NCBI GenBank assembly: GCA_003222195.1
Contig: QHVB01000042.1
Coordinates: forward strand, 1-52,300
Length of the DNA stretch: 52,300 nucleotides
Reading direction: 5' to 3'
From: Gemmatimonadota bacterium
GTDB lineage: Bacteria > Gemmatimonadota > Gemmatimonadetes > Gemmatimonadales > GWC2-71-9
Shown: piece after piece, positions 24,635 to 26,711 of the stretch
How the letters are laid out: each line of letters opens with the position of its first letter
Numbering within the stretch: the stretch's first letter is position 1
The notes under the pieces: model-generated
Told to the model about the DNA's origin: nothing
What the model saw: only the letters and a program-made list of their open reading frames with translations
Databases searched by the model: none
Position numbers and translations under genes: made by a program

Positions 24635-24978
24635 TCCCCAACATCGGGCCGCGTGGCCAGCGGCAGCGGTTGCGGCTGGGGATCATCGCCGTGGCGGCGG
24701 CCGGAGTGCTCACGGTGTTGCTCTTCCTTTTCGACGCCCCGCGGCTCTGGCGGTTCGCCTGCTTTCTCCCCCTGTGGATCGGCGCACTTGGCTTCCTACA
24801 GGCGTTCGACAAAACCTGAGTCCGCCTCGCTGCGCGCGGTCTGCGCGACCTGGACACGGGACCTGAACCCATCAGCGCCGCCGTTGAGCTCGCACAAATA
24901 CGCGGACAGGCGCGGCTCGTTCACCTGAAGTCGATCGTGAGCGCCGCGATTTTGACGGCGCTTCTCGTTCTCCTGTAA
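24631..24978 (+). CDS. Candidate selenoprotein: small membrane protein with in-frame TGA at codon 63
   Basis: A TTG at 24631 overlaps the previous stop. Residues 1-62 read LIPNIGPRGQRQRLRLGIIA ... WIGALGFLQAFDKT, with two membrane segments (about 16-34 and 41-57). Codon 63 (24817-24819) is TGA. The frame then stays open for 52 codons with normal GC-rich codon use (VRLAARGLRDLDTGPEPISA ... SIVSAAILTALLVLL), adding a third hydrophobic segment, and stops at TAA 24976-24978, just before the kinase. In relatives as I recall them, the KT-x-V position is cysteine. A GGUCU-loop hairpin sits 18 nt after the TGA, as in E. coli fdhF. Readthrough would give 115 residues. Without it, a 62-residue truncated protein is made. 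The family function is unknown to me. Confidence 0.55.
24817..24855 (+). promoter_or_regulatory. Candidate bacterial SECIS hairpin
   Basis: Directly after the TGA (24817-24819), bases 24833-24837 (CGCGC) pair with 24843-24847 (GCGCG) around the apical loop GGTCT (24838-24842). An outer GTCC (24820-24823) can pair with GGAC (24852-24855). The GGUCU loop and the 18-nt distance from the UGA match the E. coli formate-dehydrogenase element bound by SelB. The internal bulge differs, so the assignment remains a prediction. Confidence 0.5.
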
Positions 24979-24993
24979 GTTTGTTGGACCGTC

Positions 24994-26139
24994 ATGACAC
25001 GACCAGTAACGCGCCTGAAGACGCGACGCCCGTCGCGCGCCGCCGAGCCTGCTCCGGCCGGCCCGGTGCTGCCCACACTCTACAGCAATGAGACGGGGCG
25101 GTCGTATCGGCTGGATCGGCTGATCGGCAAAGGCGGATTTGGCGAGATCTATCTCGCCACCCCGAGCTCTGCCGGAGCGATTCCCCCGCGCGTCTGCGTC
25201 AAGATCAGTTACCGGATCGCGGGATGGCTGCGCGAGGCGTACTTCGCGGAGCTGCTCGCGCGCCAGGCCCGCGCGCTCCGCGTGTTCGACCGGTTCGTCC
25301 AGGTCGAGTCGACGACCACGAGATACTGCCTCGTCATGGAGTACGCCGAGCATGGCGACCTGAGCGCGTGGCTGACGGCGCAGGGCGGACAGCCCGAGAG
25401 ATTCGTGCGACACGAGATCGCCGCCATTCTCGAGACGCTGGATGTGCTGCATCGCGGGCAGGCATTGCACCGCGACTTGACGCCGTTCAACGTCTTCGTC
25501 TGCGAGAACGAGATCCTGAAACTCGGAGACTTCGGGATCGCGACGCACCAGGCGAGCCGGCGCGGCGTCACGGCCGACGCGTTCAACCCGCTGGGTGCGC
25601 CGACCGAGATCGCGTGGGGGAAGGTGCGCAAGTGGCAGCAGCGCGACGACGTGTATCAGGTCGGCCAGCTCATCGCGATGCTGCTCCGCGGCGACGTGCA
25701 CAGCCCGATGCGGAGCCGCGACGTCCGCCGGCTGCCGTGCAGCGACCATCTCAAAGAGGTGATTCATCGCTGCCTCGGCGCACGGGGGAAGCGCTATCAG
25801 TCGGCCGGCGAGATGATCGACGCGCTCAACAACCCGCCCAAGCAGATCCACAAAGGCGTGGTCAAAAGTCTCAAGGGACGGCGTGTGTCCTTCACCGGAT
25901 TCCTGAACCGGCCGCGCCGCGATGCGATCGCGGCGGCCAAGCGATCCGGCGCCGTCTTCCAGGCGAGTCCCGGACCTTCGACCGACATCCTGGTGCGCGG
26001 GCGGCCCAATGCACTCCAGGTGGCGGGCAAGGATGGCGGGCTCAAGCTGATGGAAATCAAACGCCTGGCCGCTAAGGGGCACCGCGTCACGGTCATTGGC
26101 GAGGCGCAGTTCTGGAAGCTGGTCTCGCGGAGAAGCTGA
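24994..26139 (+). CDS. Ser/Thr protein kinase fused to a BRCT domain
   Basis: 381 residues. The kinase spans about 38-285: glycine loop GKGGFG at 45-50, an ATP lysine in VCVKIS (K70), the catalytic loop HRDLTPFNVFV (D161, N166) and DFG at 179-181. All key residues are present. A BRCT domain follows at about 293-377 (LKGRRVSFTGFL, AAKRSGAVFQASPGPSTDILV, KLMEIKRLAAKGHRVTVIGEAQFW). In bacteria BRCT domains are mostly known from NAD-dependent DNA ligase and mediate binding to phosphopeptides or DNA ends. A kinase carrying its own BRCT suggests phosphorylation-dependent recruitment, perhaps in DNA damage. No membrane segment is present. It follows the selenoprotein candidate by 15 bp. Confidence 0.9.
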   Translation: MTRPVTRLKTRRPSRAAEPAPAGPVLPTLYSNETGRSYRLDRLIGKGGFGEIYLATPSSAGAIPPRVCVKISYRIAGWLREAYFAELLARQARALRVFDRFVQVESTTTRYCLVMEYAEHGDLSAWLTAQGGQPERFVRHEIAAILETLDVLHRGQALHRDLTPFNVFVCENEILKLGDFGIATHQASRRGVTADAFNPLGAPTEIAWGKVRKWQQRDDVYQVGQLIAMLLRGDVHSPMRSRDVRRLPCSDHLKEVIHRCLGARGKRYQSAGEMIDALNNPPKQIHKGVVKSLKGRRVSFTGFLNRPRRDAIAAAKRSGAVFQASPGPSTDILVRGRPNALQVAGKDGGLKLMEIKRLAAKGHRVTVIGEAQFWKLVSRRS

Positions 26140-26243
26140 TTCCCTCACGGATCATCGCACGTCGTCTCATCAGCCAGCGCCTTCATGCAAATGCCGGTCG
26201 AGTTGGAGGAGGTCACCGGCACAGGTAATTTAGAAGGACTGCC

Positions 26244-26711
26244 ATGACTGACGAATACAAGACCAAGCTGCAGGCGCTCCTCCAGGCATACGCCGAGCGC
26301 GCCGCAAAGAACCCGGCCGCGACCCAAACGCCGCAGGATCAGACGGACCGTCGGGCGTGCGGAGAACGGCTGCGGTCGGTCGTGCGGCCGGTGCTGGACG
26401 CGACCCTGGCCGATCTCAAAAGCGCCGGACACGATGGCGCCGTCCGGGAGCACACCGAGCGCGAGGACGCCTACCCGAGCGTTGCGCTCTCCTTCACACC
26501 GCGCGGCGGGCTTGCTTCAGCCGTCATTTTCCGCTACGACCCCCGGCACGGCATCGTCGTCCACCGCGAGGTCAAGCAAGCGCCCTGGAAAGGACGGCCA
26601 GCGACGGGAAGCGGGGACCGGCTCGGCACGATCGGCATCACCGCCGTCTCGGCGGCCTGGGTCGAAACCAAGACGCTCAGTTTTATCGAGGCTGTCCTGA
26701 GAGCGAATTAG
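26244..26711 (+). CDS. Hypothetical protein, 155 residues
   Basis: A soluble protein starting at ATG 26244 after GAAGGA. The first ~65 residues are helical (LQALLQAYAERAAKN, CGERLRSVVRPVLDATLADLKSAG). The rest is strand-rich (YPSVALSFTPRGGLASAVIFRYD, HGIVVHREVKQAPW) and ends in a helix SFIEAVLRAN. It lies 104 bp after the kinase and could be a partner or substrate. Its 3' end overlaps the convergent minus-strand gene by 29 bp. No family recognised. Confidence 0.6.
   Translation: MTDEYKTKLQALLQAYAERAAKNPAATQTPQDQTDRRACGERLRSVVRPVLDATLADLKSAGHDGAVREHTEREDAYPSVALSFTPRGGLASAVIFRYDPRHGIVVHREVKQAPWKGRPATGSGDRLGTIGITAVSAAWVETKTLSFIEAVLRAN

Follow-up and report, generated by a model that had tools for sequence, protein, structure and literature searches.

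A predicted serine/threonine kinase fused to a BRCT domain in Gemmatimonadota and its possible link to DNA ends

What does a serine/threonine kinase do with a BRCT domain in a bacterium, and could the joined protein respond to broken DNA? We addressed this question for a gene in a Gemmatimonadota contig that is complete in the window (the whole stretch of DNA analyzed here, 52,300 bases) and belongs to a 3.5 Mb genome in 95 contigs that is 99.8% complete. A single open reading frame at window positions 24994-26139 on the forward strand, running from ATG to stop, encodes a protein of 381 aa. An antisense open frame of 450 aa (24796-26148, reverse strand) spans the entire gene and has the look of a shadow frame in high-GC coding sequence. 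A scan for promoters and terminators, which used a sigma-70 consensus that may not apply to this host, found nothing. The features of the gene are as follows.

24994..26139, forward strand: whole gene, Hanks-type kinase, linker and BRCT domain, 381 aa, stop included (open reading frame, Pfam, 20-row alignment A1)
24994..25083, forward strand: N-terminal 30 residues, variable, Arg/Pro/Ala-rich, of low model confidence (alignment A1, model)
25105..25833, forward strand: kinase domain, about residues 38-280 (Pfam Pkinase, match to PknB)
25474..25476, forward strand: codon of D161, predicted catalytic Asp of HRD, invariant (alignment A1)
25528..25530, forward strand: codon of D179, predicted metal-binding Asp of DFG, invariant (alignment A1)
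25570..25572, forward strand: codon of T193, invariant Thr in the activation loop (VTAD; D195 invariant too), with a putative role (alignment A1)
25870..26127, forward strand: BRCT domain, about residues 293-378 (profiles, domain model, structure matches)
25894..25899, forward strand: codons of T301-G302, first half of the putative phosphate pocket, invariant (alignments)
25915..25917, forward strand: codon of R308, equivalent of Rfc1 R174 by alignment, invariant (alignments)
26044..26046, forward strand: codon of K351 at the start of helix alpha2, invariant, equivalent of Rfc1 K209 by position rather than by printed alignment
26122..26136, forward strand: short basic tail following the conserved FWKL; most homologues have a longer one that is rich in Lys/Arg (sequence rows)

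The original prediction, of a kinase and a C-terminal BRCT domain in one chain, is borne out at both ends of the protein. At the N-terminal end, the Pfam Pkinase profile matches residues 38-304 (E = 9.4e-22; 78.1 bits against a cut-off of 31.7), and the kinase model superposes on Mycobacterium tuberculosis PknB with a Z of 18.8 over 213 residues at 3.0 A. Invariant in all 20 rows of alignment A1 are the Gly loop (G45/G47/G48-F49-G50), K70, E81 (probably the alphaC Glu), H159-R160-D161, N166, and D179 and G181 of the DFG motif. We assign the domain to the Hanks-type Ser/Thr kinases with an intact catalytic set and predict that it is active. The earlier statement that all catalytic motifs are present holds for the Gly loop, K70, HRD and DFG but is slightly too strong, since at the end of the activation segment the canonical GTxxYxAPE is replaced by NPLGAPTEIAWG, with APTEIAWG in the APE position and low model confidence there. 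This is a divergent kinase, since it scores 78 bits with Pkinase against 189 for the best among the 31 kinases of the same genome. The source genome and 11 related genomes are kinase-rich, with 11-79 Ser/Thr kinases each (E ≤ 1e-15).

The activation loop reads RRGVTADAFNPLGAPTEIAWG and is poorly modelled, with a pLDDT under 50 across residues 180-216. Both T193 and D195 are invariant in alignment A1, and T193 is a candidate autophosphorylation site. PknB carries VTQTA at the matching loop position, with two Thr phosphorylated, the first of which T193 would equal and the second of which D195 would replace; we treat this correspondence as a lead only.

At the C-terminal end, the sequence profiles by themselves are borderline. 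PF00533 gives E = 0.0087 with the whole protein, its 20.8 bits falling just under the curated cut-off of 21.3, and E = 0.00047 when the last 99 aa are searched by themselves; the C-terminus also matches NCBIfam PRK06195, an exonuclease with BRCT, at 9.4e-8, and a profile of the kinase-BRCT family matches the ligase BRCT 1l7b at 0.0014. In a fold search with the full-length model the matches listed were kinases only, and because the kinase fills that list, the BRCT was modelled separately (residues 287-381, alignment of 19 rows, pLDDT 80.8). Among the matches listed, phospho-readers of other kinds such as FHA were not represented, an absence that carries no weight as evidence. The resulting model has strands and helices in beta-alpha-beta-beta-alpha-beta-alpha order, and Foldseek places LigA (9a6z_B, E = 3.3e-5) first and Rfc1 (7u19_A, 1.2e-4) next, with tandem BRCTs of the phosphopeptide type ranking behind both. 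Direct superposition gives a Z of 10.2-10.3 with the Rfc1 BRCT (77 residues, 2.4 A, 35% identity), 10.2 with LigA, 9.2 with Rad4 and 7.9 with BRCA1 (1t2v_A), the phosphopeptide complexes of Rad4 and TopBP1 lying close behind at 8.6-9.2. Because the domain model matches LigA and Rfc1 first, we assign the C-terminus, at the level of the model, to the BRCT domains of the ligase/clamp-loader type, although the gap in Z between Rfc1 and Rad4 (10.3 versus 9.2) scarcely exceeds the tie margin. The match to BRCT on which the original prediction had staked itself is therefore found in the LigA and Rfc1 folds and, marginally, in the PF00533 profile.

The nearest BRCT sequences outside the family are the C-terminal BRCTs of DnaQ-type exonucleases (loci L077 and L078), and an exonuclease of this type is the likely source of the domain; with PF00533, two exonuclease BRCTs score 22.7 and 21.1 bits. 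Two BRCT matches occur in the source genome, one in a 698-aa frame and the other in the kinase-BRCT gene; most bacteria are described as having only one or two BRCT proteins, the ligase and a DNA polymerase III subunit (PMC10386641).

Part of the case for a DNA ligand is a set of four residues, T301, G302, R308 and K351, which are invariant in all 20 family rows of alignment A1. In yeast Rfc1, Thr166, Gly167, Arg174 and Lys209 are reported as the site for the DNA 5'-phosphate (PMC9359705). Alignments of an exonuclease BRCT with Rfc1, read together with the family alignment, pair T301-G302 with Thr166-Gly167 and R308 with Arg174, and K351 is paired by position; a T-G-R-K pocket of the Rfc1/LigA type is thus predicted. 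The isolated Rfc1 domain is reported to bind with a Kd of about 10 nM and to prefer 5'-phosphate ends (PMC9293009), and binding of such ends at about 10 nM is also given in PMC9293004. Such a pocket does not by itself establish that a BRCT binds ends: Rfc1 docked in the RFC complex is described as hardly using the 5'-phosphate (PMC9293009), and XRCC1 BRCT1 is described as taking poly(ADP-ribose) in its pocket and binding DNA via another face (PMC6334254). Beyond the BRCT, K+R outnumber D+E in the tail of every one of the 20 rows, and the C-terminus consists of the BRCT and this basic tail, with no hydrophobic stretch and no transmembrane helix in the sequence.

To place the gene among its relatives, we scanned 84,980 species genomes, one per species, with a pattern that reaches close relatives only. 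The scan returned 22 family loci and one unrelated kinase (L048), all family loci but one being Gemmatimonadota and the exception lying in a MAG labelled Chloroflexi; the named relatives are nearly all Gemmatimonadota MAGs. Alignment A1 comprises the window and 19 intact homologues from these 23 loci, omitting L039 for its broken frame, L044 for an N run, L045, which a contig end truncates, and L048; A2 (19 rows) also omits L027, and A3 (18 rows) omits L027 and L030. A profile of the kinase part, applied at E ≤ 1e-38 to 6-10 scored candidates per genome, detected the family, as one copy per genome, in 26 of 390 phylum genomes and in 28 of 250 genomes from the order; at least 13 genera of Gemmatimonadota are represented. 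The weakest full copy scored 1.9e-148, the sole other match (1.4e-43) was a copy cut by a contig end, and no close cousin lacking the BRCT was seen at that threshold among the candidates scored.

The BRCT is also present in all 26 phylum genomes that carry the kinase, and the fusion lies in one open frame in 24 of them, one of these being cut by a contig end. The other two, G010 (L039/L074) and G162 (L075), have frames broken inside the same part of the BRCT. In G389, locus L076 has the last half of a BRCT only, with no kinase within 1.5 kb on either side; this half and the broken frames may reflect either sequencing error or decay. A BRCT profile matched 31 of 395 genomes, namely the 26 kinase carriers, G370 (a copy cut short), G389, and a further three, G178, G078 and G241, whose BRCTs are of the exonuclease type (confirmed individually for G178 and G078). 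Across nine pairs, dN/dS ranged over 0.038-0.134 in the kinase and 0.044-0.361 in the BRCT, where one close pair (L041-L084) gave the highest value, and both domains are under purifying selection. The 19 intact homologues and the low dN/dS mark the gene as more than a chance frame.

The rarity in bacteria that had been predicted is consistent with 22 loci in 84,980 genomes, within the reach of the close-relative scan, and no family member was found in viral contigs or phages. Similarly, a plasmid search gave no match covering 80%; the plasmid BRCT matches were a small BRCT protein of Ligilactobacillus, none of whose four surrounding features was named a kinase, and an exonuclease-domain protein of Desulforapulum. 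We found no description of a bacterial kinase-BRCT protein in the open-licence literature, and while kinase and BRCT are each known, their pairing appears to be undescribed as far as this search extends.

The gene has moved between lineages. In a tree of 29 proteins, from which broken, partial and duplicate records were left out and to which L085, L089 and L090 were added for the tree only (they are absent from the flank comparison), families f1 and f2 require three label changes, at least two of them forced by well-supported branches, and two genomes of the genus to which the window belongs, G005 and G008, are placed well away from the rest of that genus. Among the four pairs with at least 85% DNA identity, homology continues past the gene in two (window-L026 and L041-L084) and ends at or near it in two (window-L027 and L033-L088); the window and L027 have two downstream neighbours in common as proteins. 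The genes at L033:2778-3919 and L043:7985-9126 are about 90% identical in DNA, a similarity limited to the gene and set in unrelated flanks. The L043 contig is labelled Gemmatimonadota and the 4.7 kb L033 contig Chloroflexi, and the latter may be misbinned; it carries a tRNA-Gln upstream of the gene. A tRNA-like stretch at 24840-24880 of the window was considered as a mobile-element signature and rejected: ARAGORN found no tRNA in the window and Rfam nothing, and a 24-mer from the stretch occurs once in the genome.

The kinase-BRCT gene is a single-copy lone gene without conserved neighbours. Clustering of open reading frames for an operon or partner gene yielded no family in more than five loci besides the gene and its antisense or alternative frames, and in a repeat with called genes no family outside the kinases reached beyond 4 of the 26 loci. 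Its neighbours in the window are of ordinary or unknown kinds: a glyoxalase, a DinB-like gene, a gene with a weak match to YjbR, a TPR gene and an amino acid permease. A 155-aa frame downstream (26244-26711, forward strand) matches nothing in Pfam or PADLOC; L026 and L045 have relatives of it, also on the downstream side of the gene. Further Ser/Thr kinase genes were seen within about 10 kb in 6 instances over 15 loci, against 2.3 expected from the kinase density in 12 genomes (Poisson p = 0.028); such flanks occur at L079, L084, L086, L090 and L092 and, outside that count, at L029, L031, L041 and L047. At L086:7852-8727 a PP2C-type phosphatase gene sits just upstream on the same strand and was not seen as a conserved partner.

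We also compared carriers and non-carriers of the gene for the end-joining protein Ku, the only repair family compared. Within the order, Ku is encoded in 27 of 28 carriers (the exception being G229) and 125 of 222 non-carriers (Fisher 6.9e-6, uncorrected for ancestry). Within family f1 the counts are 13/13 carriers versus 69/89 (p = 0.048) and within f2+f3 14/15 versus 56/133 (p = 1.2e-4), a split which assumes that all Ku-less f1 genomes were among those listed; by genus, the association is not significant (12/13 versus 47/62, p = 0.17). Catalase, the only control family, moved in the opposite direction (0/28 carriers versus 28/222 non-carriers, p = 0.03), so that clade structure alone can shift such counts, and we treat the link between the kinase-BRCT and Ku as a hypothesis.

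Our tentative preference, to which we give somewhat less than an even chance, is that the protein is a soluble, stand-alone, DNA-damage-sensing Ser/Thr kinase, recruited or activated at 5'-phosphorylated DNA ends or nicks in the manner of YabT or RqkA. The BRCT, aided by the basic C-terminal tail, would grip the 5'-phosphate at an end, nick or gap in DNA; kinase molecules gathering on the damaged DNA could then phosphorylate one another in trans, most probably at T193, and the activated kinase would phosphorylate nearby repair, replication or division proteins. By analogy, the output might resemble that of YabT of Bacillus subtilis (RecA, SsbA) or RqkA of Deinococcus radiodurans (RecA, PprA, FtsZ). 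What suggests this reading is that a competent kinase, a ligase-type BRCT with a complete pocket and basic tails come together in a lone gene. The BRCT is moreover single rather than tandem, its nearest outside relatives sit on DNA enzymes (the DnaQ-type exonucleases), and the fusion is kept together under purifying selection and co-occurs with Ku. Against it, no repair gene adjoins the kinase-BRCT gene, the same type of pocket receives phosphopeptides in BRCA1 and, in XRCC1 BRCT1, poly(ADP-ribose), and the Ku association is not significant by genus.

The main rival is phosphopeptide binding by the same pocket, in which the BRCT would dock on phosphorylated partners or on the kinase's own phosphosites as a read-write module, so that phosphorylation would be processive or propagate itself without the protein touching DNA directly. 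In phosphopeptide binding, flanking contacts usually come from a second BRCT; here that second domain is absent, and the single BRCT is nearest in sequence and structure to those of DNA enzymes (LigA, Rfc1, DnaQ-type exonucleases). A phosphopeptide reader would nevertheless be a natural fit to a kinase, the T-G-K triad is common to phosphopeptide BRCTs, the complexes of Rad4 and TopBP1 rank close (Z 8.6-9.2), and the likeness of the Rfc1 5'-phosphate site to the phosphopeptide site of BRCA1 is described as remarkable (PMC9359705). We regard this reading as possible but rather unlikely. The invariant Rfc1-type pocket makes the originally predicted role at DNA ends or phosphopeptides a reasonable one, but sequence alone cannot decide between the two ligands.

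Quite unlikely, in our view, is a mobile accessory kinase for defence or competition, which would detect free ends on foreign DNA that enters the cell or is degraded and would arrest growth by phosphorylating targets in the host. The patchy spread (28 of 250 order genomes), the family changes in the tree (at least two, on well-supported branches) and the frequent end of homology at the gene boundaries would suit such a role, whereas five window neighbours scanned with the gene showed no defence match and the family was not found in viral contigs or phages. Among PADLOC models, PD-T4-6, a kinase defence model, gives the best match (6.8e-28), but seven of seven ordinary kinases of the same genome do far better with the PD-T4-6 models, their best values running from 6.6e-55 to 1.5e-83. 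The match is therefore generic, and identity with that anti-phage kinase was rejected. Another alternative is a kinase of general signalling in which the BRCT serves passively in dimerization or protein contact and has nothing to do with DNA ends or phosphate; it would accord with the 11-79 kinases per genome in 12 genomes and with the protein contacts that BRCTs are said often to mediate (PMC9293009). Such a module would have no need of a pocket invariant in 20 of 20 rows, and a housekeeping gene would be less patchy; we consider this explanation improbable.

Returning to the DNA-end kinase, its proposed parts have precedents in other combinations. LigA and Rfc1 share with it the BRCT fold, the T-G-R-K pocket and a single domain, but carry the BRCT on a ligase or clamp loader rather than a kinase, and in the DnaQ-type exonucleases (PRK06195 type), which have the nearest BRCTs, the catalytic part is an RNase_T/DnaQ exonuclease. 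In eukaryotes, DNA-PK and ATM, with Ku, are kinases switched on by DNA ends; kinase family and sensor are unrelated to those here, and the parallel is one of analogy only. The sensor part of RqkA is of another kind than BRCT. RqkA is reported to act on repair and division proteins after irradiation, and the likeness lies in the role proposed for it, an alternative DNA damage response based on phosphorylation, while no BRCT is described for it in the cited passages of that account (PMC6052341). YabT is described as a Hanks kinase activated by DNA, with RecA among its targets (PMC3708118, PMC6333020). Like the kinase-BRCT protein, it is a bacterial Hanks-type kinase without an extracellular receptor, and the closest structural homologue named for it in these accounts, PknB, is also the top match here. 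Its C-terminal region couples DNA to activity, which is shown for YabT and proposed for the kinase-BRCT; according to the same accounts, YabT relies on a basic, disordered juxtamembrane segment together with a transmembrane helix, in place of which the present protein would use a folded BRCT with a phosphate pocket.

Bacterial DNA damage signalling has been described almost solely as the LexA/RecA SOS response, and DNA-responsive kinases, such as YabT and RqkA, are few. If true, the coupling of a kinase to a defined DNA-end pocket would be a clean and directly testable case, and a tractable one, being one soluble protein of 381 aa with four pocket residues and DNA ligands known from Rfc1. In its broadest form, which we consider unlikely, the proposal is that the family is a mobile bacterial counterpart of the DNA-end-activated checkpoint kinases, in which a ligase-type BRCT would sense 5'-phosphorylated breaks and phospho-signalling would act beside or instead of SOS in bacteria with Ku-type end joining. 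The family belongs to a poorly studied phylum, and it indicates that a eukaryote-like pairing of sensor and kinase can arise in bacteria through domain capture.
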